A stretch of 64,000 bases of DNA from Pseudomonadota bacterium. GTDB taxonomy: Bacteria > Pseudomonadota > Gammaproteobacteria > Halothiobacillales > Halothiobacillaceae. Position numbers and translations under genes: made by a program. The stretch lies in assembly GCA_021801265.1 (NCBI GenBank), contig JAJYYE010000010.1, forward strand, positions 186,001 through 250,000, written 5' to 3'. Of the stretch, positions 3,877-64,000 are shown piece after piece (positions within the stretch are counted from its first letter, which is position 1; each line of letters begins with the position of its first letter). The notes beneath the pieces were generated by a model, which did no database searches, had not been told where the DNA came from, and saw nothing but the letters and a program-made list of their open reading frames with translations.

Positions 3877-4103
3877 CCCGAAAATGCTAATACTCCTACC
3901 CCCTCGGAGGGCCCGACAGAGTGGGGTTCTCCAATCCAAACACCCGTAGGAGGGGATTTATCCCCGACAGCAGAGTTAAATAAACCCAAACGCGCGGTGC
4001 CATCGTTTATCCGCCACCGCCGCTGGCACACAATGGTGCTCATCGCATGAGGCACAATCGCAAAGCTGACGTAAGCCCGCATCAGGGATAAATCCCCGCC
4101 CAC
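3877..4103. repeat. Second REP cluster upstream of the MASE1-EAL gene
   Basis: A well-preserved plus-strand REP is at 3946-3968 and a minus-strand copy at 4081-4103. Degenerate partial copies are at about 3877-3899 (minus, only the CTCCTAC end conserved) and 3902-3917 (plus). They match the 1339-1603 cluster in sequence and head-hairpin layout. Opposed orientation of the two good copies suggests a REPIN-like unit about 158 nt long. The cluster lies in the leader or promoter zone of the minus-strand EAL gene. Confidence 0.75.
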
Positions 4104-4465
4104 AAAGCATACACATCTATGCCAGCTCGTAACCCAGATAGGGCGTCACGGCATCTGGTGCAAGTATTTCAGCATCTGGGTTGCTGGCTGCGCCACGACC
4201 ATTGTATGCAAACTTGTGTAGCTACTTACGCCGCAAAGGGAGAAGGTTAGGACGGGAAATTTATTCATCCACGAGATAGATTCCAATCCCCAACCCGCCC
4301 CGAGTACAGGGCGGGCGCTTTTATTCAGATGTACCCCAAAATCCTGATACCGCCGCATCCAATCGAGAAGTTCTTCCAGCCGATGTTGCCCTGTGCCGAT
4401 AAGTCTACCAATGAAAAAACTTTTGATTACACTCTCATCGCGATCTTTGCTTACAATTGAGGCAA
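4104..4465. other. Intergenic gap with possible small RNA ending in a terminator
   Basis: I see no convincing protein gene here. The plus strand from about 4200 to 4323 ends in a strong terminator-like hairpin (4294-4323) that does not follow any plus-strand gene. Just before it is a stretch with several GGA trinucleotides (about 4228-4258). A small regulatory RNA is possible but unproven. Confidence 0.35.
4294..4323 (+). terminator. Orphan intrinsic terminator
   Basis: A CCCGCCC/GGGCGGG stem (4294-4300 with 4309-4315, 8-nt loop) is followed by CGCTTTTA. It sits upstream of the PAS-PAS-GGDEF gene and downstream of nothing on the plus strand. Confidence 0.55.
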
Positions 4466-22204: not shown

Positions 22205-22374
22205 GCCAGTCATCCTATTTTATTGATTTTAGTGACCCAGAATTCGTAACCCATTGGTCGCCCAATAGCCTTTATTCATGCTATTCAGTAACCCAGAAAA
22301 AACAAGTAAAAAGCGCTCGCTTGAGTTTTCGGCGTTACTCATAGAAAGAAATTCATGTGCCTCACTATTTAAAC

Positions 22375-22401
22375 AAAAAACGCCATCTCAACGATGGCGT
22401 T
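22375..22401 (-). terminator. Intrinsic terminator after rpsA
   Basis: On the minus strand the stem AACGCCATC/GATGGCGTT (5-nt loop) is followed by a run of Ts. It is 24 nt past the rpsA stop and before ihfB. Confidence 0.92.
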
Positions 22402-22424
22402 AATCCAACAACTTACATAACAGA

Positions 22425-24104
22425 TTACTCTGATCGATTCAGTTGTTCTTTCAGCAAATCACCCAGGGTGGGATTGCTGACTGTTGTCCGGCTCATCTCC
22501 TCCATTGCTTCAGATTCTTCTTGTGAATCTTTGGCACGGATCGACAAGCTCACCATACGGTTTTTACGATCAACGCCCATCACTTTTGCTTCAACAGCAT
22601 CGCCTTCTTTCAAGACGGTGCGGGCATCTTCCACGCGATCACGCGAAATATCTGAAGCGCGCAAGTAACCTTCGACGCCATTGCCCAAATCAACCACCGC
22701 ACCACGGGCATCGACTTCGCGCACGGTGCCAGAGATGATTTTGCCCTTTTGGTTATCCGAAGAGAAATCGCCAATGGGGTCGCTTTCCAACTGCTTGAGG
22801 CCTAAAGAAATGCGCTCGCGCTCAGGATCGATGGCAATAACAACCGCCTCAATTTCTTCGCCTTTCTTGAATTGACGCACGGCATCTTCGCCGGTTTCAT
22901 TCCAAGACAGGTCAGACAAGTGAATCAAGCCATCGATGCCACCATCCAAGCCGATGAACACGCCAAAGTCGGTAATTGACTTAATCTGACCACTGACTTT
23001 ATCACCTTTCTGATGAGTGGCAGCAAATGCATCCCATGGATTCGCCTGGCATTGTTTCATGCCCAATGAAATCCGGCGGCGTTCTTCGTCGATGTCCAGA
23101 ATCACAACTTCCGTTTCATCGCCCACGGAAACAACCTTACCTGGGTTGACATTTTTATTGGTCCAATCCATTTCGGAAACGTGCACCAAACCTTCAACAC
23201 CATTATCGATTTCCACGAAGCAGCCGTAATCCGTGAGGTTTGTGACCTTACCGAAGAAGCGGGCACCAATCGGGAAGCGGCGTGCCAAATCGCTCCAGGG
23301 ATCTTCACCCATCTGCTTCATACCAAGTGATACGCGATTGCGATCACGGTCAAATTTCAATACTTTAACATCGACTTCGTCGCCGATGGCGACGACTTCG
23401 GAAGGATGCTTAACGCGTTTCCAAGCCATGTCGGTGATGTGCAGCAGGCCGTCGATGCCACCCAAATCAAGGAATGCACCATAATCGGTGAGGTTCTTGA
23501 CTACGCCACGCAATACCATGCCTTCCTGGAGTTGATCGAGCAGCGCATCGCGTTCGGCGCTGTACTCTTGCTCCACCACGGCACGGCGTGAAACCACGAC
23601 GTTGTTGCGTTTTTGATCGAGTTTGATGATTTTGAATTCGACATCCTTACCTTCGAGATAGGTGGTGTCGCGAATCGGACGCACGTCAACCAATGAGCCC
23701 GGCAGGAACGCACGGATTTCGCCCATTTCGACGGTAAAGCCGCCTTTGACTTTGCCGGTAATGCGGCCGGTAACGATTTCTTCGTTTTTGAATGATTTTT
23801 CCAGCGTGGTCCAAGCACGAGCACGCAAGGCTTTCTCACGAGACAATTTGGTTTCGCCAAATCCATCTTCAACGGACTCAAGGGCGACATCAACCTTATC
23901 ACCGACTTTAATCGTCAGTTCGCCGTTTTCATCGAAAAACTCGGCGGCGGGAATAACACCTTCAGATTTCAAACCGGTGTCGATGACAACAAAGTCACCG
24001 GTAATTGCGACTACAGTGCCTTCAATAATGGCACCTGGCTGCATCACTGCATTTTTTTGACTCTCTTCAAAGAGATCGGCAAAACTTTCAAATTGGGCTG
24101 ACAT
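22425..24104 (-). CDS. rpsA: Ribosomal protein S1
   Basis: A 559-aa mRNA-binding protein of the 30S subunit needed to start translation on most mRNAs. Six S1 repeats are recognisable; several carry the signature [17 protein letters not shown] or close variants. The start is the ATG at 24104 ([15 protein letters not shown]); a longer frame upstream has no family support. The start has only a weak purine stretch before it, which is usual for rpsA and fits its autogenous control. It lies in the aroA-cmk-rpsA-ihfB order. Confidence 0.97.
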
Positions 24105-52798: not shown

Positions 52799-52875
52799 CG
52801 GGATGTAGCGCAGCCTGGTAGCGCACCTGCATGGGGTGTAGGTGGTCGGAGGTTCAAATCCTCTCATCCCGACCA
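52799..52875 (+). tRNA. tRNA-Pro (GGG anticodon)
   Basis: A 77-nt cloverleaf with encoded CCA. The acceptor stem is CGGGATG with CATCCCG. The D-arm GCGC...GCGC, anticodon stem CCTGC/GTAGG with loop ATGGGGT (anticodon GGG at 52833-52835) and T-arm with TTCAAAT all fit. The gene marks the border between core chromosome and the island, and its 3' end is a common integration site for tyrosine-recombinase elements. Confidence 0.97.
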
Positions 52876-52896
52876 ATAAAATTAACGATTTACATC

Positions 52897-52918
52897 AACC
52901 GCCGAAAGGCGGTTTTTG
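52897..52918 (+). terminator. Intrinsic terminator after tRNA-Pro
   Basis: A stem AACCGCC/GGCGGTT with a GAAA loop is followed by TTTG, 21 nt after the tRNA. Confidence 0.9.
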
Positions 52919-53621
52919 TTTTTCAGCATTTTGGATACGGATCTGGATACAACTTGGATTTTGCCAGGGGACTGCGATTAGAAGAGATGGCGTGAGAAGC
53001 TCTGGGCGATGATATTGGGGTTGACTCCCTGCTTGTGTCTACCAAATGACGTTGGCGTGGCTAAGGATGGATCCCTCGGTTGACTAGAGTGTGGATCACA
53101 AATATCCCATTTCTTTGGTAAAGCCAAAGGTCCGCTTCTCGGTGCTATTGCAGACATTGACATTGCAGTAGATTAACTGCCGCTGTGTAGGGGCGAGAGC
53201 AGTCATCTGCATTGGCACAGGGGGGCAATCACACGCCCGGACCTAACACCTGGCTATCTGAATTCTAATAATTCCGTCTCCGGCTTTGAAAAACGGTTCG
53301 GATCGGATGGCGCAAACCGAATGGTCGTTTGTCACACGCGAATTCGCTGAAGAACAGTGGATCGTTGACGTAGGTTCGACCTGATCGCGTATGGCTTCCC
53401 GTCTTGTATTTGGATATTATCTTTGGAAGCTAAGATCGCGGCCAGCTTGGTGACTTTTGTACCATGTAACCAACCCGCCAACTGAACTCCTGACTTCTCG
53501 GGGATATCTAGCTTGTGCATGGCGACCGTCACGCAAGACCATTATATGGTTGGAAGCTTGCATTCCCTCAGGACACGCCTCTGGCTAATCAGTCGAGAGG
53601 CAATAGACTAAGGACTTTAGT
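52919..53621. other. 700-nt island leader without a recognisable gene
   Basis: Just past the tRNA terminator there is GGATACGGATCTGGATACAA (52933-52952), with GGATAC twice, of the sort seen near attachment sites. No integrase or integrase fragment is recognised. Short minus-strand frames (52978-53163 and 53332-53532) have no family look or ribosome binding site. The stretch probably contains the promoter of the ABC-3C operon and decayed island DNA. Confidence 0.45.
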
Positions 53622-54842
53622 ATGGAAGCCGCTTCCCTCGATCAGTATTCCGCCGGAGAGCAAGGGCTGGGATACATCTATCAGCCTCGCTTCGCACTGC
53701 TCAAGCTCTTGCAGTTGCCGGAGAGCACGTCAGTTTTGATTGAAAAGGACGACGACCTTGACTTCATCGACAAGGACGGCGTCAAGACGCTGGCCTCCCT
53801 CAAGCACAAGGGGACTGGTGATCGTCTGACAGACCTGTCAACAGACTTCTGGAAGTCGGTCCGAATCTGGCTTGCCCGATACAACCGTGATGGGCGCAGC
53901 GAGGCCAGTCTTTGCTTCTTCCTGTTTTCGACGGGCACTGTTTCAAATACCTCATTCTTACGGCACTTCCTGCTTGAACCACCGACAGAAGACGAGACCT
54001 ATTCGCTGTCACAGATTGCAGCCAATGTTCTTGCCAAGTCCGAATCGAAACTCATCGGTGAAATCGCTGCCGAGTTCCATAAACTCAACGACGACGAGAA
54101 GGATGACTTTCTCGCGCGCATCGTGATATTTGATGCCGCACCGCGTATTGAGGATGTGCCTTCGATCATCAAAGATCAGCACATGCGTAGCATCCGGCGC
54201 GATAACCGCGATGCCATCTTCGAGCGCCTCGAAGGTTGGTGGAATGACACCATTGTCAACCTGTTGGTCGGCAAGCGTGCAGACGCCATCTTCGGCTACG
54301 AAATCTCAGACAAGCTTTCCGCGTTTGCCGAGGAGTACAAGTCAGACAACCTCCCGATCACCTTCCGAGGGAAGGTGCCCGCTGGAGAGATCGATGCAGA
54401 CAATGATCCGCGCCTGTTTGTTGTCCAACTGCGAGAAATTGGTATTGCCTCCAACCGCATTCGCAACGCCATATTGGACTACTACCGAGCTTTCGAGCAG
54501 CGGTCTTCCTGGGCTCGCCAGAACCTCCTTGTCTCGGGAGAAATGGAAGAATACGAAGACCGCCTTATTGATGAATGGAGTCGCTACCGGGATGTGGTCT
54601 TCGAGGAACTTGATGAAGACAGTGCCGATGCAGTTCTTTTGGAAGCGGGTAAAGCACTGTATCAATGGGCTGACTTGGAGAGCGGCAATAACAGCACCCT
54701 TCGCATTCGGGAGCGTGTGACCGAGCCCTATGTTGTGCGCGGCGGATTCCATATCCTTGCAAACAGCCGACCACTTCCAAGAGTTTATTGGCACCCACGT
54801 TTCCTTAACCGTGTCGGCCAGTTGTTGGGGGCCGCGGAATGA
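53622..54842 (+). CDS. ABC-3C system effector: nuclease-like N-terminal domain plus ABC-3C C-terminal domain
   Basis: A 406-aa protein, the first gene of a three-gene ABC-three-component (ABC-3C) system. The N-terminal 160 residues resemble the DUF4297/Cap4-type restriction-endonuclease-fold domain: GLGYIYQPRFALLKLL, then Glu41, Asp43-46, the LKHK segment at 60-63 and LTDLSTDFWKSVRIW. The Glu/Asp/KxK spacing is compatible with a PD-(D/E)xK active site. The remaining 240 residues (LEGWWNDTIVNLL, EYEDRLIDEWSRY, YVVRGGFHILAN) match the C-terminal domain typical of ABC-3C effectors. Expected role: DNA cleavage when the ATPase partner senses an invader. This is inference from the family; AAGGA precedes the ATG. 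Confidence 0.82.
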   Translation: MEAASLDQYSAGEQGLGYIYQPRFALLKLLQLPESTSVLIEKDDDLDFIDKDGVKTLASLKHKGTGDRLTDLSTDFWKSVRIWLARYNRDGRSEASLCFFLFSTGTVSNTSFLRHFLLEPPTEDETYSLSQIAANVLAKSESKLIGEIAAEFHKLNDDEKDDFLARIVIFDAAPRIEDVPSIIKDQHMRSIRRDNRDAIFERLEGWWNDTIVNLLVGKRADAIFGYEISDKLSAFAEEYKSDNLPITFRGKVPAGEIDADNDPRLFVVQLREIGIASNRIRNAILDYYRAFEQRSSWARQNLLVSGEMEEYEDRLIDEWSRYRDVVFEELDEDSADAVLLEAGKALYQWADLESGNNSTLRIRERVTEPYVVRGGFHILANSRPLPRVYWHPRFLNRVGQLLGAAE

Positions 54843-55327
54843 AAAGGTGGGATCAACGACCATTTGAAGTCAAAAATCTTTTCAATCCAGCCTTCTGCGG
54901 CCTGGTGTTGTTCAGGGCATTGCAAGGCTATGAGGAGGAGAACCCGGATGGCATGCCGTTCTCTCTTGCATTGCTCGTGCTCCCACTGTGTTTGCAGAAA
55001 GACGCTCGCGAAGTGATTGCGGGCAGTTCTCGCAGCTATCTTTTGAAAATCGTCGAAAAGAACCCTCAGTTGCTGGTTGGCTTCGCCGAGCGCGCCCGCG
55101 ATCTGCTGCCGTTTGCGCTCGAAGCTTTTGGCGTGCTGATGGAGCGAGGATGTTTTGACGTGTCGCCAGATGGCCGGTTGAAGACTGTGCCGAAACGCGT
55201 TCGGAAATCCGTGACCGGGACCGATGAGTCCATCTCCTGTCAACGCGTCGCACGCATTGTTGGAAAAGAATTTGCGCGCATCGCAGATCGCGTGACCGTG
55301 TACACGACCTTTGGAATACGCCCATGA
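54839..55327 (+). CDS. ABC-3C system middle component
   Basis: A 162-aa protein with the typical middle-component layout: an N-terminal VKNLFNPAFCGLVLFRALQG segment, then LLVLPLCLQKDAREVI, FAERARDLLPFALEAFGVLM, and a C-terminal GKEFARIADRVTVYTTFGI. It links the effector and the ATPase in predicted ABC-3C conflict systems. It has 4-nt ATGA overlaps at both ends, so the three genes are one translational unit, which is itself diagnostic. Confidence 0.85.
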   Translation: MKRWDQRPFEVKNLFNPAFCGLVLFRALQGYEEENPDGMPFSLALLVLPLCLQKDAREVIAGSSRSYLLKIVEKNPQLLVGFAERARDLLPFALEAFGVLMERGCFDVSPDGRLKTVPKRVRKSVTGTDESISCQRVARIVGKEFARIADRVTVYTTFGIRP

Positions 55328-57285
55328 AAATCAAATCGATTCATATCTACAGTCACGACGGGCAGCGCCGAGATCTTCAGTTCAAGGTAGACGGCCTGAA
55401 CGTCATCACTGGTCGTTCCTCCACCGGGAAATCAGCACTCTCCGAAATCATCGAATACTGTATGGGGCGCTCAACCTTCAATGTCCCGGAAGGTATCATT
55501 CGCGACAAGGTGGCATGGTTCGCCGTGATCTATCAGTTCTCCCAGGAACAGGTACTAATCGCAAAGCCCACGCCAACCGCCGGTGGTACAAGCTGCAGTA
55601 CCGCCATGCAGCGAAGGGGAAATCAACTGGCAGTCCCCGACTTTAAGGAGTTGGTGGTCAACACTGATGATGAAGCGGTGGTTGCGCTGCTGTCGCGGCT
55701 GTTGGGCATCCCGGAGAACCGTACCGATGTTGCGATAGAGCACAGCCGGGAAAGCTATGACGCGAACGTCAAGCACACGTACTACTACTTATTTCAGAAG
55801 CAGGGCATTGTCGCCAACAAGGATCAACTTTTCTATCGTCAGAATGAAGCGTTTCAGCCACAGGCGATCCGCGACACATTGCCGATCCTTCTGGGCATTT
55901 CTTCCAATGATCGGTACGAGCTGGAGGCCAAACTGCGCGCAGCGCAGCGAGAGCTGAAGCTCAACGCAAAGCTCCTCGAACAGGCTCGAGATGCCATTGA
56001 TACGTCTCAGCAAAAGGGAATCAGTCTTTTCTCGGAGGCCAAGGCGGTCGGCATCATCCAGCCGGAGAATCAACAGGCTGGGCCGGATGGCATGATCGAC
56101 GCCTTGCGTACTGCCCTGCAATGGAAACCGGCCTCGGTTCCCGACGACGACGGTCAAAGAATATCTCGGCTCGAAGAAGAGATTAGCCAACTGCGTAAGG
56201 ACCGGCGGGAGGTCCAATCCAAGGTCGATGCAGCCCGTCAGTTCTCCAAGCGGGCTGGCGGCTTTGAAAGTGAAGCGCTGGAGCAAAAAGATCGACTCGC
56301 TTCCATCAAGGCCCTTCCCAAGAATCCTGAGACCGGTGAGTGGCAATGGCCATTCTGCGAAGCAAACCTGGCTCTGGAGTCCCCTGTTGCACAAGTGCTC
56401 CTCAAAGAACTGGCAACACTCGACGAAGAAATGAGCATTGTCGCGGGTCAACGACCGAAATTGGAAGCGTATCTTGCCGAGCAGGATGACAAGGTACGCG
56501 AGGTCGTAGATGCAATAAAGAATAAGGAAGCGGAGTTGTCTGCTGCAATCGCGGCCAACGAAGTGATCGCGCAAATGGGGACGCGCAACAATGCGGCGGC
56601 ACGGGTTGTGGGTCGCATCAGCTTGTTCTTGGAAAATATTGTCCCCAATGCGGAGTTGATTGCGCGCGAAGCAGAGCACCGCCGCCTGAAGTTCAAGGTC
56701 GATGAGCTGGAGAAGAAAATTGGTGCAGACGACAGCCACGAACGACTGACATCGATTATGAATAACATCTCAGCTCAGATGTCACGTTACATTCAGGCCT
56801 TCAAGGCGGAGTTCAGCGCCTTCCCTGCCCGACTCGACCTAAATCATCTCACCATCGTTTTCGATCGGCCAGATCGCCCGGTTCCCATGAGCCGAACCGG
56901 CGGTGGTGAGAACCACTTGGCCTACCACCTGTCGGCATTGCTGGCACTGCACCTTTTCGCCTCGAAGAACAACAGCCCAATTCCTCAGTTCCTACTGATC
57001 GATCAGCCCACTCAAGTATATTTCCCCTCGGAAAAAATTTACCAAGAAGCGGATGGAACAGTCCAGAAGACAGAGGCAGACGCCGACCTAGCGGCTGTCC
57101 GTCGATTGTTCGAGCTGTTGCTAAATTTCACACAGAAGGAAGTCCCGGGTTTTCAACTCATCGTGACTGAGCACGCAAATCTTCGCGATCAGTGGTTCCA
57201 AGATGCTTTGGTTGAGCTGCCATGGACCAAACCTCCTGCATTGGTGCCGGAAAATTGGCCTTTGATGTCTCGGTCATCTTCATGA
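55324..57285 (+). CDS. ABC-3C system ATPase (DUF3732, SMC/Rad50-like)
   Basis: A 653-aa ABC ATPase of the SMC type, the third gene of the ABC-3C operon. Walker A is GRSSTGKSA at residues 30-38, a long charged helical middle (about 215-490) should form a coiled coil, the ABC signature is GGGENHLAYHLSALLALH from about 527, Walker B is FLLIDQPTQ near 555, and the switch His is in VTEHA near 614. WPFCEAN at mid-coil has only one cysteine, so the CxxC zinc hook is absent or incomplete. It probably senses DNA or a DNA-end state and licenses the nuclease-like partner. Experimental knowledge of DUF3732 systems is limited. Confidence 0.87.
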   Translation: MKIKSIHIYSHDGQRRDLQFKVDGLNVITGRSSTGKSALSEIIEYCMGRSTFNVPEGIIRDKVAWFAVIYQFSQEQVLIAKPTPTAGGTSCSTAMQRRGNQLAVPDFKELVVNTDDEAVVALLSRLLGIPENRTDVAIEHSRESYDANVKHTYYYLFQKQGIVANKDQLFYRQNEAFQPQAIRDTLPILLGISSNDRYELEAKLRAAQRELKLNAKLLEQARDAIDTSQQKGISLFSEAKAVGIIQPENQQAGPDGMIDALRTALQWKPASVPDDDGQRISRLEEEISQLRKDRREVQSKVDAARQFSKRAGGFESEALEQKDRLASIKALPKNPETGEWQWPFCEANLALESPVAQVLLKELATLDEEMSIVAGQRPKLEAYLAEQDDKVREVVDAIKNKEAELSAAIAANEVIAQMGTRNNAAARVVGRISLFLENIVPNAELIAREAEHRRLKFKVDELEKKIGADDSHERLTSIMNNISAQMSRYIQAFKAEFSAFPARLDLNHLTIVFDRPDRPVPMSRTGGGENHLAYHLSALLALHLFASKNNSPIPQFLLIDQPTQVYFPSEKIYQEADGTVQKTEADADLAAVRRLFELLLNFTQKEVPGFQLIVTEHANLRDQWFQDALVELPWTKPPALVPENWPLMSRSSS

Positions 57286-57501
57286 CCCGAAGAACGGAAG
57301 AACCGATGTCACCCCCTCGTTTGAGTCTGCGTTCTCCCTATAAAAGCCAACTTGTTGGTGGTCGGGCGTATGGAGAGCGGGAGCCGCAAAAGGCGGGCGT
57401 AGTGCGTTCAGCACGAAGCCACGCAGCGCAAGCGGAGTGCTGGGGGAGCCGACCCTGAACACGCGCCGAGCGCAGACGGAACCAGCAGCCAGCGTGACAA
57501 A

Positions 57502-57536
57502 TCCTGAGTCCAAAGGACGATCCCGAAGGGACAGGA
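57502..57536 (+). ncRNA. Three-way-junction fold
   Basis: An outer stem TCCTG/CAGGA (57502-57506 with 57532-57536) encloses two perfect hairpins: GTCC-AAA-GGAC (57508-57518) and TCCC-GAA-GGGA (57521-57531). Every base of both arms pairs. The order and tightness suggest selection on a folded nucleic acid. It could fold as RNA or as single-stranded DNA. Confidence 0.5.
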
Positions 57537-57639
57537 GTTGGCGCGGTGGTTGCGGCGGAGTCGAAGCCGAGGTCGTGAGCGAGCCCCAGCGAGCGGTCAG
57601 GGTTGGGGGCGAAGCCCCCCAATCCCCAACAAGCGATAG

Positions 57640-57772
57640 CGCGTCGGGGCATCCAGCTTTGGGTCGCAGGACGCTCGCAGAGAGGACAAGATTCTGGCGT
57701 AGGCCAGAACGAGGTCAGGCCATAAGCGTAGCGGCCTCGACCGAAGCCAGCAAAGCTGGATGCCCCGACGCG
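57640..57772. repeat. Perfect 22-nt inverted repeat with structured 89-nt interior
   Basis: Left arm 57640-57661 and right arm 57751-57772 are exact reverse complements. The interior holds the TTCTGGC/GCCAGAA hairpin (57692-57709) and a GGTC-GGCC/GGCC-GACC stem (57713-57742). The whole unit can fold as one long hairpin with side branches. Confidence 0.85.
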
Positions 57773-58090
57773 GAGCGGAGGGGATTGGGCCGGGGGAACC
57801 GCGAAGCGGGGGCGGAGCCATTTCTGCTCGGTTCCGTGGACGGGCGTCCAGCCCGTCAGGTGCTGCAAACCCGCATTGCGGGCGGCGTTCAGCCGTCCAT
57901 GAGCCTAGCGAATGGATTGCAAGTACCGTCAGGAGCTGAGTGGAAATTGACAGCGGACTCAGTGTTCACCCTGTCGTCGCCTTTGCACATCTGTCTGCAC
58001 GCCTGATGGCAATACCCCGTGCAAGGTCATGTGCAATGTCTGCTGTGCTGTGTCGTGTTGCGAGCCATGTCGTTCTAATTTTGGTCCGCG

Positions 58091-58118
58091 CCTAATGAGG
58101 TTCAACCACATCATTAGG
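58091..58118. promoter_or_regulatory. Inverted repeat just upstream of mobC-like gene
   Basis: Perfect 8-nt arms CCTAATGA and TCATTAGG are separated by 12 nt that can itself pair (GGTT with AACC). It ends 11 nt before the mobC-like start and overlaps the ribosome binding region. It may be an autoregulatory operator or the recognition repeat of a transfer origin. Confidence 0.55.
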
Positions 58119-58129
58119 AAACTAGGAAT

Positions 58130-58906
58130 ATGAGCAACGACACCACAAAGGCGCGCATGACAGCGCACGAAAAAATGGACGGCATGTCACCACGGGCACG
58201 TCACGAAGAAAAGCGATTGAATGTCCTGGAGTGGACCTATCGCTGGGGCTGGACAACGGCCATGGTCATCACTGATTTGCTTGAGGTAGAGCGCCGTGGA
58301 TTCGCCAAGCAGTTGGTCGGCAAGGGCTTTCTAAAGCCCATCACGGTGCATAAATCCAGTGGTGTGTACGGAGTGCCAATCGAAGTCTTTGCGCTAACCC
58401 AGTTGGGCGTGAACGAGGTTGAAACGATGTGTTCGCTCTCGTACCTGGAGGCTTACCGCCAAAGTTATTACGAGAATCAGCTTACTCACGATCTCGTCGT
58501 ACAGAAAATCGTGCTGAGTCTTCTCAAGGCAGGGTTCGAGGGGTACATGACGCCTCAAGAGATTACCGTCCACCTGGATGGCAGGTTGGGCGTTAAACGC
58601 CCCGACGCAATTATTTTCAGCAAGGGAGTGAAGACCGCAATTGAGCTTGAGCTCTCGAAGAAGGTTGGTCGAGAGTGGGATACGACCCGGTTTTTGATTG
58701 CAAAGAGCCTTCGGGAGAAGATGTTTGACGAGTTTCTTATTGTTTCAAACTCGGAGGCAATCCTCCGGCGATATGAATCTGAATTGAAAGAAGGCCGTCG
58801 AGTTAACCTCTGGACCCGAAACGCTGCTCGTCAGTGGAACGCGACAGGAACCACGCTCCTAACGGGTATCGAAGGGAAGATGACAACCAAGAAGATCAAG
58901 CTATGA
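58130..58906 (+). CDS. MobC / replication-relaxation family protein
   Basis: A 258-aa protein of the replication-relaxation (Replic_Relax, MobC-type) family found on plasmids and integrative elements. The N-terminal half has a winged-helix look (EKRLNVLEWTYRWGWTT, LTQLGVNEVETM). The C-terminal half has RPDAIIF near residue 157 and TAIELELSKK near 168, the spacing of a PD-(D/E)xK-like nuclease core. Members are linked to plasmid replication or mobilisation. It follows the structured non-coding block and a palindrome, and overlaps the next gene by 4 nt. No relaxase gene is visible in the window. Confidence 0.75.
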   Translation: MSNDTTKARMTAHEKMDGMSPRARHEEKRLNVLEWTYRWGWTTAMVITDLLEVERRGFAKQLVGKGFLKPITVHKSSGVYGVPIEVFALTQLGVNEVETMCSLSYLEAYRQSYYENQLTHDLVVQKIVLSLLKAGFEGYMTPQEITVHLDGRLGVKRPDAIIFSKGVKTAIELELSKKVGREWDTTRFLIAKSLREKMFDEFLIVSNSEAILRRYESELKEGRRVNLWTRNAARQWNATGTTLLTGIEGKMTTKKIKL

Positions 58907-59232
58907 CGCTGGGTTCCATCATTGCTCCGATTGCTTCACTGTCGATTACATTTATCGCAGTATTGGTTGGTGCCGGACTGGCCTTGGGCGTGTACGTGGT
59001 ATACGACATGAAGCTTAGGAAGGTCCGATCTGAGTTGAGTCGGAGTCAATCCGAGCGAGATATGGTTATGGCTGAGATCAGGGAGTTAGAGAAAGAACGG
59101 GATAAACGCTGGAGGGAACGTCGGGCGGTAGAACAATGGCTCGCCGATGCCGAACAACAGCGGGAGGAAGCGGAAGCAGCCATCCAGGCAACGGAAGAGC
59201 GGAGGGCTGCCTTCGCTCGTATCCGGATCTAG
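58903..59232 (+). CDS. Small membrane-anchored coiled-coil protein paired with mobC-like gene
   Basis: A 109-aa protein: one N-terminal membrane segment (about 7-33, LSITFIAVLVGAGLALGVYV) followed by a highly charged heptad-rich helix (about 38-102) ending ERRAAFARIRI. ATGA overlap with the upstream gene shows co-translation. The layout suggests a membrane tether or scaffold for a transfer or DNA-handling complex. I do not recognise the family. Confidence 0.75.
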   Translation: MTLGSIIAPIASLSITFIAVLVGAGLALGVYVVYDMKLRKVRSELSRSQSERDMVMAEIRELEKERDKRWRERRAVEQWLADAEQQREEAEAAIQATEERRAAFARIRI

Positions 59233-59419
59233 GATCTACTCAATTCGAAGCAACGCCCACTCACTGATTCCTGTTGTCGCCTCCGGCGCTCGTGGGTTTT
59301 GATTCACGCCTACGGCGGTCACGACTGTAGGGGAGTGGATGATCAGACCAAACCTCGCCTTGGGTGACATCAGTAAATTTTCTCTGTGAGATACTCTGGC
59401 TGGTACGGATGCGGTTGAA

Positions 59420-59437
59420 GATTTACTTCAGTAAATC
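59420..59437. promoter_or_regulatory. 18-nt palindrome near the alpA 3' end
   Basis: GATTTACT and AGTAAATC are perfect arms with a 2-nt spacer. A half-match CAGTAAATT occurs at 59369-59377. It lies in the 255-nt gap between the mobC pair and the convergent alpA gene, which otherwise shows nothing I recognise. It could be a binding site for an island regulator. Confidence 0.45.
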
Positions 59438-59487
59438 GAATTTGGCCTCGATTGCTAATCTTCCGCTGCCTGTTGCCAGCGACAGAA

Positions 59488-59736
59488 TTACGTTCCTTGT
59501 TTGGTTGGTTTCCTTTTCCGCCGGTACCAAACAGCCCCTGTTTCGACGGCTGACCTGGATTCCTTCCAGACGTCAAATTCTGTGCTTAGCCAACCCACCC
59601 GTCCGGAACTCAGTTGCCGTTGCCGAGGGAACACACCCCGCTCAATTTCTCGGTAGATGGTGGCTCGGGACAACCCCGATTGTTCGCAAATCTGGGTGAG
59701 ATTCAGGAAAGTTGCGGTCTTTTTATGCGTGGGCAC
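59488..59736 (-). CDS. AlpA-family transcriptional regulator
   Basis: An 82-aa DNA-binding protein of the AlpA/MerR-like excisionase group: FLNLTQICEQSGLSRATIYR is the helix-turn-helix, followed by GVFPRQRQLSSGRVGWLSTE, the wing typical of AlpA. In P4-like islands AlpA controls the integrase or acts as an excisionase. The start is GTG at 59736 without a strong ribosome binding site. It diverges from hsdM, so the 236-nt gap 59737-59972 holds both promoters. It supports the reading that the region is an integrated element. Confidence 0.88.
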   Translation of the reverse strand: MPTHKKTATFLNLTQICEQSGLSRATIYREIERGVFPRQRQLSSGRVGWLSTEFDVWKESRSAVETGAVWYRRKRKPTKQGT

Positions 59737-59972
59737 TGGCTAGGTTTTCTCGTGGTTAATTTTGTGATGGATAAAGCCTAATGCTCCCCATCGACCATCT
59801 CCACGATGAATAAGCTACAAAAATGTCGTTACTCAGCCTATTTTCTTGGTTTCGGGTGGCCAGCAGCCATGTGAAGGGGTTTGTGATCTGGCCTCGCGGC
59901 TCGTATCATCCTTTTCTATTTCCTTATATCTCCCACGCCAGTGGGTATAGATTCAAAAAAGTAGACTTGCCC

Positions 59973-61592
59973 ATGCATTGGATTGCCCCTTCCGAGAAAG
60001 ACACTGCTTCCGCCGCGCTGGAAAAGCGCCTGTGGGATGCTGCCGACCAGTTTCGCGCCAACTCAGGGCTGAAGGCGCAGGAATATTCCGCCCCGATTCT
60101 TGGGTTGATCTTCCTGCGTTTTGCCGAAGTGCGTTTCACCCTTCAGCGCAGCAAGCTCGGAGCCGCCGGTGTGTCGTCGCGGCGCGGCAGTCGGGTTGAT
60201 GAACCCGCCGCGTACCATGCCGAAAGCATCCTCTATCTTAGCCCCGAAGCTCGCTTTGATTATCTGCTCACGTTGCCTGAGGCGGCCAACATCGGCGCAC
60301 AGGTCAACACCGCCATGCGTGAGATCGAAAAGCACAATCCCCAGCTTGCGGGTGTGCTGCCCAAAACCTACAACCTTTTCACCAGTACCTTGCTCAAAGA
60401 GCTGCTGAAGAAAGTGTCCGAAATTCCGGCCACGGTCGATTACGATGCCTTTGGGCGCATATACGAGTATTTCCTCGGTGAGTTCGCCCGCACCGAGGGA
60501 CAGAAGGGCGGCGAGTTCTACACGCCGAGCGGCATCGTTCGTCTACTGGCCGAAATCATCGAACCCTTTCATGGTCGCATTCTCGATCCCGCCTGCGGTT
60601 CCGGCGGCATGTTTGTGCAATCGGCGCGCTTTGTGGCCGAACACCAGAAAAACCCCGCCGCCGAACTCGCCATCTGCGGTGTTGAAAAAACCGACGAAAC
60701 CGGCCGCCTGTGCCGCCTCAACTTGGCCGTGCATGGGCTGGAAGGCGACATCAAGCACGGTGGCAACGTCAATAGCTACTACGATGATCCGCACACCGCC
60801 ACCGGATCGTTCGACTTCGTCCTCGCCAATCCGCCCTTCAACGTCAACGCGGTGGACAAGGAACGGCTCAAGGACATGGTCGGCGCCGGCCGCCGCTTCC
60901 CCTTCGGCCTGCCTCGCACCGACAACGCCAACTACCTGTGGATTCAACTCTTCTACTCATCGTTGAATGTCACCGGCCGCGCCGGCTTCGTCATGGCCAA
61001 CTCGGCTTCGGATGCCCGCTCCAGCGAACAGGAACTACGACAGAAGCTGATCGAAGCGCGGGCGGTGGATGTGATGGTCGCCGTCGGCCCCAACATGTTC
61101 TACACCGTCACGCTGCCCTGCACGCTGTGGTTCTTCGACAAGAGCAAGGCCAAGACCCAGCGCGCCGATACCGTCCTCTTTATCGACGCCCGCCACATCT
61201 ACCGGCAAGTGGATCGCGCCCACCGCGACTGGACCCCGGCGCAGATCGGCTTTATCGCCAACCTCGTCCGCCTCTATCGCGGCGAGGCGCTCGACTTGAC
61301 CGTCGGCGGTGACGAGACGGCGGCCAAGCTCAAGGAAGTTTTCGGTGAAACGCCCGTCTATTCCGATGTGCCCGGCCTGTGCAAAGCCGCCACTCTGAGC
61401 GAAGTCGAAGGGCAAGGCTGGTCGCTCAACCCCGGCCGCTATGTCGGCGTCGCGCCGGGCGAGGACGTCAGCGACGAGGACTTCAAGGAACAGCTCGAAA
61501 CCCTGAACGAGGAACTGGAATCGCTGAACGCCCAGGCGCGGGAACTGGAGCAGACCATCGCCGCGAATGTGGCGGGGATTCTGGAGGCGTGA
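59973..61592 (+). CDS. hsdM: Type I restriction-modification system, methyltransferase subunit
   Basis: A 539-aa N6-adenine methyltransferase subunit. The N-terminal helical HsdM domain (about 5-165) precedes the SAM motif [10 protein letters not shown] at about 204-213 and the catalytic NPPF at about 285. A C-terminal helical tail ([19 protein letters not shown]) is probably used for contact with HsdS. ATG at 59973 gives the family start ([20 protein letters not shown]); an upstream frame to 59823 is not conserved. It is followed 2 nt later by hsdS. Base composition is more GC rich than the neighbouring alpA. Confidence 0.95.
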
Positions 61593-61594
61593 GG

Positions 61595-62845
61595 ATGGCT
61601 GCTTGGCCGGTAAAACGCATGGATGAGCTATGCGAGATCACATCGAGCAAACGCATCTTCGCGGCGGACTACGTTTCCGAAGGTGTGCCTTTTTATCGCG
61701 GGCGTGAAATCACCGAGAAATACAAGGGCAACCTCGATGTCTCGACGGAGCTTTTCATCACGGAAGAAAAATTCCACGAGATTGAGCGCAAGTTCGGGGC
61801 ACCAAAGCAAGGCGACATGCTGCTTACGTCGGTCGGCACTCTCGGCTCCGTTTATGTTGTGAAGTCGGGCGACCGCTTCTACTTCAAGGATGGGAACCTG
61901 ACTTGGTTTCGCCACTTCAAGGGGCTCGACAGCCGGTTTCTCTATTACTGGATAGGTTCTCCTCAAGGCAAAGCGGAGCTTCAGAAATGCACGATTGGTT
62001 CATCCCAGTCGGCTTTTACCATCGTGCTATTGAAAAGCATGGAGCTCGAACTCCCCCCGTTCCCCGTCCAGCAACGCATCGCGGGCATCCTGTCCGCCTA
62101 CGACGAACTCATCGAGAACAGCCAGCGGCGCATCAAGATTCTGGAGTCGATGGCCCGCGCCCTCTACCGGGAGTGGTTCGTCCACTTCCGCTTCCCCGGT
62201 CACGAAAACCACCCCCGCGTCGCTTCCCCCCTCGGCGAGATTCCGCAGGGGTGGGAGGTCATTGCCTTCACCGAAATAGCTGACGTTCTTAGTGGCGGCA
62301 CACCCAAAACCAGCACGCCCGAATACTGGGGCGGAAATATTCCTTTTTTCACCCCGCGCGACGCGCCGGACTTTTTCTACGTTGAGGGCACGGACAAGCA
62401 CATCACAGAACTCGGGCTTACCAAATGCGCCAGCCAACTCTACCCGCCTGACACGGTTTTCATCACCGCCCGTGGAACAGTTGGAAAAGTTGCTCTCCCG
62501 TCAGTCCCAATGGCGATGAACCAATCTTGCTACGCACTACGTGGCAAGCCAGGGATTTCTCAACGATTCCTGTTTCTGATGACGCTGCAACAGGTTGAGT
62601 ATCTGAAAACCAACACCGGTGGAGCGACATTCGATACCATCGTTGTCGATACCTTTCGCCGAATGCAGATAGCGAAACCACCTCTTGATTTGATCTCCGC
62701 CTTCACTCGCCATGTGGCTGGAGTGTTCGAGCAAGTGAATACGCTCCAACGCCAAATCCAAAACCTCCGCCGCACCCGCGACCTGCTGCTGCCACGTTTG
62801 CTGTCGGGACAGATAGATCTGTCGGAGGGGATGGGACTTGGCTAA
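61595..62845 (+). CDS. hsdS: Type I restriction-modification system, specificity subunit
   Basis: A 416-aa DNA-recognition subunit with two target recognition domains. TRD1 (about 1-150) is followed by a conserved helical spacer (QQRIAGILSAYDELIENSQRRIKILESMAR); TRD2 (about 205-370, PQGWEVIAFTEIADVLSGG) is followed by the second helical repeat. ATG at 61595 has GGAGG 7 nt upstream. The specificity is not predictable. No hsdR appears in the window; it may lie further right. Confidence 0.95.
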   Translation: MAAWPVKRMDELCEITSSKRIFAADYVSEGVPFYRGREITEKYKGNLDVSTELFITEEKFHEIERKFGAPKQGDMLLTSVGTLGSVYVVKSGDRFYFKDGNLTWFRHFKGLDSRFLYYWIGSPQGKAELQKCTIGSSQSAFTIVLLKSMELELPPFPVQQRIAGILSAYDELIENSQRRIKILESMARALYREWFVHFRFPGHENHPRVASPLGEIPQGWEVIAFTEIADVLSGGTPKTSTPEYWGGNIPFFTPRDAPDFFYVEGTDKHITELGLTKCASQLYPPDTVFITARGTVGKVALPSVPMAMNQSCYALRGKPGISQRFLFLMTLQQVEYLKTNTGGATFDTIVVDTFRRMQIAKPPLDLISAFTRHVAGVFEQVNTLQRQIQNLRRTRDLLLPRLLSGQIDLSEGMGLG

Positions 62846-63443
62846 GAAGAAAGCTCCAGAGATGACCCTAGCTCGCTGGCTTGTGCTAGCACAGTCTGCT
62901 GGGGTGAGAAACCAAATCGCCGCTGACAAGGCGCAAGAAGACTTTCAAGCCATCATCCAAGTGGCGGCGCGCCGTCAGACGCTGGATTGGGAAGAAGCTG
63001 TCGCACTCCTACACATGGTGTACGCCTGGATGCCAACCATGCTGCGGACCATTGAGCCGCATACCCCGGCACAGCGGAGTCAGTTGCTGGCTCATCTGCA
63101 GAAGGTGAAAGCAGGTGAAATACTGACCGCCACCGAGTTAGACAACGTGAAGCGTTTCGCCAATCGCTCTGTGGTTGGGGCGTCCAAGTTGTTGCATGTG
63201 CTTAACCCTGCGAACTACGTAATCTGGGATTCTCGGGTGGCCGATGTGTTTTTGTGGAGAGGCGTGACGCTGGTCGCCTATTCCACGATCGATCGGTACA
63301 TGGAGTACCTGAAGTCATTGCGCCAATGGGCAATGGATCCGGACGTAACCGGCGAGTGCGACGCACTACGCCAGTTGAACCCCATGCTGGCGGCTTCTGG
63401 CAATCTACGCTTGATCGAGCTGGTGCTGTTTTGCAAATCGTGA
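62838..63443 (+). CDS. Unknown protein appended to the hsd operon
   Basis: A 201-aa soluble protein I cannot name. It starts at TTG 62838, overlapping hsdS by 8 nt with GGAGGGG upstream (62823-62829), so it is translated with hsdS. The most striking segment is FANRSVVGASKLLHVLNPAN followed by YVIWDSRVADVF, around residues 105-140. It looks like a helical core with a conserved Asp/Arg pair and reminds me of glycosylase-like helix-hairpin-helix folds, but that is a weak impression. Possible roles are a modifier of the type I system or an independent defence gene. Confidence 0.78.
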   Translation: MAKKKAPEMTLARWLVLAQSAGVRNQIAADKAQEDFQAIIQVAARRQTLDWEEAVALLHMVYAWMPTMLRTIEPHTPAQRSQLLAHLQKVKAGEILTATELDNVKRFANRSVVGASKLLHVLNPANYVIWDSRVADVFLWRGVTLVAYSTIDRYMEYLKSLRQWAMDPDVTGECDALRQLNPMLAASGNLRLIELVLFCKS

Positions 63444-63518
63444 ACGGTCAAACCATAAGCACTCACGCCCATTCCCAAGACGAACTCGTCGAGCAACCCG
63501 CTTTCCAGTACTTCCCTT

Positions 63519-63556
63519 TTTTTTATGGGAAAAGTAGTATGTTTTCCCATAAAAAA
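63519..63556. promoter_or_regulatory. Perfect 15-nt palindromic operator before abiEi
   Basis: Arms 63519-63533 and 63542-63556 are exact reverse complements (TTTTTTATGGGAAAA type) with an 8-nt spacer, ending 16 nt before the abiEi start. AbiEi antitoxins repress their own operon by binding inverted repeats at the promoter, so this is a good operator candidate. T-rich flanks mean it might also act as a terminator for the hsd operon. Confidence 0.75.
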
Positions 63557-63572
63557 TTCTTGCACAGAATCT

Positions 63573-64000
63573 ATGCAATCACTTAATAAAAAAGCAATTT
63601 CACGAATATATGGACGCGGTAGGGGGTGGGCATTCTCGCCGAATGATTTCGTCGAGGATTTCAGTCGCGACCAGATTGAAAACGCGCTGTCGGGATTATG
63701 CCGCGAGGGTAAGATACGCCGCGTCTGCCGCGGCATTTACGATTACCCGAAGTTCAGCGAATTGTTGCAGCAGGAGTTAAGCCCGGACTCTGATCAAGTG
63801 GCTCAGGCGTTCGCACGCAAATTTAACTGGCGCATTCAGCCTTCGGGGGATGCGGCGCTGAATTTGCTGGGGCTCTCGACGCAGGTGCCTGGGCGGGTGG
63901 TGTATCTCTCTGATGGGCCGAACCGCCAGTATGAGATTGGTCAGCAGACGCTGGAATTCAAAAAGTCGGTGCTCAAAGATGTGGGCTTCAAATACCGCGA
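63573..64000 (+). CDS. AbiEi-type antitoxin / DUF6088 regulator (3' truncated by window)
   Basis: The first 142 codons are visible and the frame runs off the right edge without a stop. The N-terminus (IYGRGRGWAFSPNDF, IENALSGLCREGKIRRVCRG, IYDYP) is the winged-helix domain of AbiEi/DUF6088 antitoxins. It is followed by FARKFNWRIQPSGDAALNLL, typical of the antitoxin's second domain. A toxin gene of the AbiEii nucleotidyltransferase family would be expected just beyond the window. A perfect palindrome precedes it, fitting autorepression. It is part of the island's defence set. Confidence 0.87.
   Translation, partial: MQSLNKKAISRIYGRGRGWAFSPNDFVEDFSRDQIENALSGLCREGKIRRVCRGIYDYPKFSELLQQELSPDSDQVAQAFARKFNWRIQPSGDAALNLLGLSTQVPGRVVYLSDGPNRQYEIGQQTLEFKKSVLKDVGFKYR

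Follow-up and report, generated by a model that had tools for sequence, protein, structure and literature searches.

MOBC relaxases are related to PD-(D/E)XK restriction enzymes (PMC12857230). For TraX, the MOBC relaxase of the Gram-positive plasmid pAD1, the same review states that a covalent DNA intermediate has not been seen, and it poses strand recruitment and religation as a question. TraX is reported to bind five direct repeats located 70-120 bp from nic. MobC of CloDF13 probably acts without a covalent intermediate (PMC9299015). In pMET1 the putative oriT is located upstream of mobB, with an oriT-mobB-mobC order similar to that of HPI-ECOR31 and CloDF13, and two nic sites were placed inside inverted repeat 2 of pMET1 and HPI-ECOR31 (PMC2262945). 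Two further systems are comparable in other respects: the oriT of the integrative mobilizable element SGI1 together with its sgm-sRNA, which is a structured mobilisation region with the mobilisation proteins MpsA/MpsB and an RNA requirement (PMC9299015), and the Frpo/ssi promoters, which are functional folded single-stranded plasmid DNA (PMC11541004).

The locus described here is a structured block at positions 57380-57912 (+ strand) of the window, which is the whole 64,000-nt stretch of DNA that was analysed. Based on its fold and on an architecture shared with related blocks, the block is proposed, with a probability of about 0.78, to be the oriT of an 18-kb integrative mobilizable element that is served by a MobC-like relaxase and acts as folded single-stranded DNA. 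Perfect 48-bp direct repeats of the end of a tRNA-Pro gene were present at 52830-52877 and at window-coordinate 70830-70877, 18,000 bp apart. Adjoining the far copy is a tyrosine integrase (69331-70710) that contains an Arm-DNA-bind_3 domain. The repeats and the adjoining integrase thus define an 18.0-kb integrative element in tRNA-Pro (52878-64000, on to window-coordinate 70877), and with the MobC-like gene they give it the features of an integrative mobilizable element. As cargo it bears a Lamassu defence operon with LmuA, LmuC and LmuB (53622-57285, +). It also carries genes for type I restriction-modification and for an AlpA-like regulator, and an AbiEii-type toxin gene that has DUF6088 as its neighbour. 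No mobB was recognised in the island, no replication gene was found among the island genes identified, and no transfer-channel gene among those scanned, the scan covering part of the island's frames. The sequence-only reading had placed the block between a defence operon and a MobC gene, and both neighbours were as claimed.

The MobC-like gene (58130-58906, +) encodes a protein of 258 aa and is located approximately 220 bp downstream of the block, so that the block lies beside mobC as in other MOBC systems. The protein matched the NF041423 profile with an E value of 1.7e-11 and 43.8 bits, below the curated cut-off of 200, and had no match in Pfam, PF13814 included. For the other seven MobC-like proteins scanned, those of loci L031 and L051 passed PF13814, that of L030 was just below, and L035, P0001, P0004 and P0005 had no Pfam match. 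Alignment of 11 MobC proteins showed that D159, E172, E174 and K178 were invariant and P158 nearly so; these PD...E-x-E...K residues may be equivalent to the active site of TraX. No match was found for the protein among solved structures or in a peptide-pattern scan of the genome contigs. The protein is a remote family member, and it is proposed to nick the oriT as a MOBC relaxase. The next gene (58903-59232, +) encodes a small protein of 109 aa with no Pfam match, in which an N-terminal hydrophobic stretch and a coiled coil were seen by eye. Proteins of similar look by eye, with a hydrophobic or lipoprotein-like N-terminus and a coiled coil, follow mobC in L009 (4770-5477) and L010 (4786-5616). 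The small protein following mobC in the window, L009 and L010 is a possible relaxosome or coupling partner.

The fold of the block was compared with shuffled sequences in which dinucleotide content was kept. Among 560-nt segments of the + strand, 57360-57920 had a DNA fold z of −9.6. The other 114 segments tile the whole window, two of them overlapping the block, and none went beyond −3.7. Scored by molecule and strand, the same interval gave a z of −9.1 for DNA on the + strand, −7.9 for RNA on the + strand and −5.5 for RNA on the − strand, and none of 100 shuffles folded as well. In 250-nt segments, which cut long-range stems, the block ranked only 5th of 512 (z −3.5), and the count of short perfect hairpins across the window did not set it apart. 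The anomaly is therefore a long nested fold. The earlier claim that structure density was far above the rest of the window thus stood for the 560-nt fold and failed for short hairpins and 250-nt segments. At the 250-nt scale the strongest fold of the window was found at 22251-22500, with z −5.2 on the + strand and −4.2 on the − strand.

The predicted fold of 57441-57810 is ordered into two domains, with a third made of hairpins. Domain A starts with GGGGGAGCCGA (57442-57452); the 2.66-Mb genome has no other copy of it, and this one stands where the domain order begins. GGGGGAGCCG is common to the window and L029, L032, L033, L035, L036 and L051. Its closing stem pairs CCGACCCTGA (57449-57458) with TCAGGGTTGG (57597-57606), of which the last two bases may instead pair in the next hairpin, and encloses a three-way junction with AAA and GAA triloops at 57502-57536, as the sequence-only reading had described it. 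The GGGGGC-GAA-GCCCCC hairpin (57605-57619) closes the domain. The outer stem of domain B, CCCAATCCCC (57618-57627) with GGGGATTGGG (57780-57789), surrounds a perfect 22-nt inverted repeat and its branches. The arms of this central repeat (57640-57661 and 57751-57772) are 89 nt apart, and its branched interior, also as claimed earlier, includes a CTGGC-GTAG-GCCAG hairpin at 57694-57707. Three C(GTNCA)G-loop hairpins flank the A/B fold: a C(GTTCA)G hairpin at 57402-57414, and the domain C hairpins GACGGGC-GTCCA-GCCCGTC (57839-57857) and CGGC-GTTCA-GCCG (57883-57895). All of these features are on the + strand. Domains A and B occur in the fold in the same order as in the relatives, and the block shows the A-B-C order with conserved loops found there except for C(CCCA)G hairpins, none of which was present with a stem of at least 4. 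A protein-coding reading of the block, which would have contradicted a non-coding element, was rejected: neither of the long open frames across it (189 aa on +, 176 aa on −) matched a Pfam family, and the stems covary in the relatives.

A search for homologous non-coding blocks in other elements, as the sequence-only reading had suggested, showed that related blocks occur beside MobC. Ten plasmids with MobC, from Sulfuriferula, Thiothrix, Yersinia ruckeri, Citrobacter, Vibrio, Klebsiella, E. coli and Proteus, were taken as four of six distinct records listed (besides two near-identical ones of H10) and six among the 60 listed of 1218 matching records. Eight genomic loci came from the NF041423 search, which matched 10 of 369 genomes, after the own genome and G118 were removed. 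In all 10 plasmids the block near the mob genes held one or more hairpins of the C(GTNCA)G or C(CCCA)G class with a stem of 4, and by the same criterion so did four of the eight genomic loci (L022, L025, L027 and L029). No hairpin with these loops was found in L023, L024 and L026, and one in L028. L030, from another genus of the host's family, also has such a block. Strong folds were observed in the MobC loci L024 (1901-2600) and L028 (4601-5300) without the loop motifs there; these two folds are perhaps a further structural class.

Hairpins were counted in 15 MobC-adjacent blocks (13.3 kb), leaving out L034, L023, L024, L026 and L028. Perfect hairpins with a stem of at least 5 and a loop of 3-6 numbered 180 compared to 54 expected, with 15 C(CCCA)G loops (0.04 expected), 15 C(GTNCA)G loops (0.03 expected) and 16 C(GNA)G loops (0.34 expected). 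The 30 GTNCA and CCCA hairpins with a stem of at least 5 all lie in the 13.3 kb of blocks and none in the surrounding 176.6 kb. With a stem of 4, six such hairpins were found outside the blocks (window 52783, L030 4576 and 12174, L033 4790, L036 3732 and L037 7168). In plasmids with other relaxases, stem-5 loop hairpins numbered none in R388 (33.9 kb) and one in R751 (50.0 of 53.4 kb), which is one in 83.9 kb. The conserved loops recur on stems of differing sequence. These counts are for blocks picked for MobC proximity, and the ranges of some overlap with open frames or, for L031, with the ColE1-like origin. The limits and strand of the blocks of L010, L022, L025, L029 and L031 were set after the loop matches, so the confinement of GTNCA loops to one strand is by construction, whereas that of the CCCA and GNA loops is not.

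The domain order was also traced in the relatives. An opening rich in G (GGGGGAGCC or a close variant of it), followed by a stem with inner hairpins and then a GGGG-C...CCCC hairpin, was found in nine of the 15 blocks (window, L009, L010, L029, L030, L032, L033, L035 and L036), and the other six (L011, L022, L025, L027, L031 and L037) do not have it. A long inverted repeat was detected in all 18 blocks scanned, with scores of 11-23 compared to 6-13 in five shuffles each; the exceptions were L022, where one shuffle equalled the block, and L037, where the best repeat lies outside the hairpin part. GTNCA hairpins come after the long inverted repeat in most blocks, and one homologous hairpin carries a CCCA or CCCG loop in the majority of relatives and a GTCCA loop in L032. 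The orientation of the block relative to mobC is alike in the window, L009, L010, L029, L030, L032, L033, L035, L036 and L051, and is reversed in L011, L022, L025, L027, L031 and L037.

Two small plasmids carry the block without detectable relatives of the mobilisation genes. L045 (4.2 kb, MPF_T type) has the whole block at 738-1298 and no detectable relative of the L035/L036 MobC or the L035 MobB, and L044 (4.2 kb) has at least the first 300 bases of the block (3906-4223, to the end of the record) with no detectable mobB or mobC relatives. Both are candidate relaxase-less hitch-hikers, and a block kept without detectable mobB/mobC fits a cis-acting site that uses the proteins of another plasmid. 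Genes annotated as T4SS-type and EexN-type were also seen on L044. With the window block itself, blastn produced no match in 72,556 plasmid records or in the phage collection. A DNA search of 96 related genomes found pieces in three, the own genome included; those outside the own block were short, and one of them (L003, the locus also called L030) is a MobC locus. In another genome (G005), L004 (1400-1660) and L005 (1400-1650) are two copies of a different repeated element with a common GGTTCYGTGGAYGGGCRTCCAG-type hairpin seen by eye, and L005 has a string close to CCGTCAGGAGCTGAGTGGAAATTGA in common with window 57830-57950.

Covariation, another check proposed in the sequence-only reading, was assessed in alignment A1, which holds 15 relatives of the L035-plasmid type (approximately 69-100% identical to the query by blast, 386 columns; 11 of the 15 loci among the matches listed, 60 of 279 records) and leaves the window out. 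The structure counted had 84 pairs, 7 of the 91 predicted being omitted, and 97.9% of 1225 cells were paired. Compensatory double changes occurred in 32 of the 84 pairs, compared to 14.2 in shuffles and at most 8 with slid partners, and the changed cells comprised 90 with both sides altered and 12 with one. G-T cells numbered 37 against 3 A-C cells, or 13 against 3 once the two columns with 24 of the G-T cells are set aside. As G-T is well above A-C, it is the block strand that folds, and selection is not only on a two-stranded cruciform. Comparison of the window with L030 showed that 6 of 15 positions of the central repeat differ while 15 of 15 are paired in both, and that both arms of the domain A stem differ in sequence next to conserved flanks.

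A covariance model of domain A (R1) was built without the window, L030 and L010 from alignment A2, which consists of eight of the 15 A1 members with L029, L032 and L009. R1 found L010 at an E value of 5.6e-5 and L030 weakly (E 0.19). On the window it scored 13.7 bits (E 2.7 over 209.8 kb), which is not significant, and this sole window match up to E 5 lies inside the block; R1 probably misses the window because the domain A there is about 90 bases longer. Searches of 229 and then 398 genomes, draws which may overlap, returned G169, which was used in building, and the new loci of G074, G595 and G706. A MobC homologue adjoins the block in all three new loci, of which G595 and G706 are from one genus; as the MobC profile matches just 10 of 369 genomes, this adjacency is not expected by chance. 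In the R1-found loci L051, L059 and L060, GTNCA and CCCA hairpins with a perfect stem of 5 were absent, and each locus had a single stem-4 GTNCA hairpin. Alignment A4 holds a probable false second match in L048.

The oriT reading rests on the published oriT-mobB-mobC order, the presence of the block on L044 and L045 and its varying orientation relative to mobC. The earlier suggestion of a novel oriT was partly supported, by the related MobC-adjacent blocks, the covariation in the relatives, the two small plasmids and the published placement. Counting against it are the R1 score on the window, the missing C(CCCA)G hairpins there, the low profile score of MobC, the four genomic MobC loci with one loop hairpin or none, the few such hairpins in the R1-found loci, the six blocks that lack the G-rich opening, the varying orientation, and block limits and strand that were partly set after the loop matches. 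In the proposed mechanism, the restriction-enzyme-related relaxase encoded downstream would process the block as its oriT. After unwinding, the single-stranded DNA of one strand would fold into ordered domains: a stem led by G5-AGCC with its hairpins (A), a nested stem around the long inverted repeat (B) and the C(GTNCA)G-loop hairpins (C). The conserved loops would be read by relaxosome proteins, and the inverted-repeat duplex would offer a nick site to the PD-(D/E)XK-type nuclease. By analogy with the published sites (PMC2262945), nic is predicted in or near the central repeat, and the published inverted repeat 2 would correspond to the long repeat seen here.

The central repeat may have an additional role. 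Covalent intermediates between MOBC relaxases and DNA have not been observed, and the repeat may instead act as a splint that holds the strand ends for religation, so that folded DNA would stand in for a covalent relaxase. One arm of the repeat would be nicked and the other arm, on the same strand, would pair across both new ends; the splinted ends would then form a nicked duplex that host ligase could seal in the recipient. Uptake of the strand by the coupling protein or MobC would be guided by the flanking conserved-loop hairpins, acting as an address label. This extension is tentative, and we regard it as possible but doubtful. If true, the oriT would not be a passive site but a DNA machine that splints itself.

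The sequence-only reading had also named a large structured RNA as an alternative, and in its favour the + strand folds strongly as RNA (z −7.9). A structured non-coding RNA transcribed from this strand and taking part in mobilisation would have a precedent in the sRNA transcribed near the oriT of SGI1 (PMC9299015), and the excess of G-U-type over A-C cells in the relatives and the seven GNRA tetraloops on the block strand compared to one on the other would suit it as well. However, no promoter-like site was found in 57200-58200, three terminator-like sites were all outside the block, the block had no Rfam 15 match even at E up to 5, and the altered pairs in the relatives were mostly changed on both sides and rarely on one. 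Since the orientation relative to mobC varies, an mRNA leader does not suit either. C(UNCG)G is the favourite loop of RNA, and it was absent from the hairpins of the 15 blocks, compared to 16 C(GNA)G triloops. Such triloops and some tetraloops were reportedly found by Nakano in 2002 and by others to be unusually stable in DNA. Overall, an RNA of this kind is considered unlikely, and the evidence favours single-stranded DNA as the folding molecule.

Strand-specific folding beside mobilisation genes could also be expected of a leading-region site of the ssi/Frpo type, which would prime the complementary strand or early expression in the recipient beside a separate oriT, and such elements occur in leading regions (PMC11541004). 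This is very unlikely for the block, in which no −35/−10-like pair was found by a scan of the double-strand consensus only, the 500-nt size is multi-domain, and the long inverted repeat is of the kind where published work places nic (PMC2262945). Finally, that the block was the replication origin or partition site of a once autonomous element is scarcely plausible. Hairpins and repeats occur in such sites and the MobC families carry a replication-relaxation label, but by eye the hairpin block of L031 is apart from the ColE1-like origin and that of pYR8 (L011) is apart from the repeats near rep, and the island has no replication gene among those identified.

Preferring the oriT reading, the block can be set against the described systems. 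It is like the putative oriTs of MOBC plasmids (CloDF13 type; pMET1 and HPI-ECOR31) in lying beside mobilisation genes, mobB/mobC in those plasmids, with inverted repeats, and L031 (CloDF13-type) and the VirB plasmids of the L035 type, whose gene order is similar to that of pMET1, share its loop classes and have a long inverted repeat. The window element differs from these plasmids in being an island with no recognised mobB and with a far diverged central repeat and MobC, and L031 differs in having no G-rich domain A opening. The putative relaxase would be of the PD-(D/E)XK type like that of pAD1 (PMC12857230), whereas inverted repeats and conserved-loop hairpins dominate here in place of the direct repeats reported for TraX. 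The element as known here is unlike SGI1 in its mobilisation proteins and RNA requirement, and the block differs from the Frpo/ssi promoters in size and in that no promoter-like hexamers were found. No description of the conserved loop architecture was found among the open-access titles and starts of abstracts listed; the CloDF13 (2001), HPI-ECOR31 and TraX (2013) papers lie outside that scope and may hold part of it. MOBC oriTs are known, and within this scope what appears to be new is that they include a conserved folded class, that this class extends to chromosomal islands, and that it has a loop code.

The MOBC family of relaxases is poorly understood. According to a 2025 review, the lack of an observed covalent intermediate raises the question of how these enzymes recruit, transfer and religate their DNA (PMC12857230). 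The architecture described here yields testable candidates for the recognition loops and the nick-bearing duplex. In addition, it offers a model-based route to the oriTs of MOBC islands and of relaxase-less hitch-hiker plasmids, which sequence similarity can miss.
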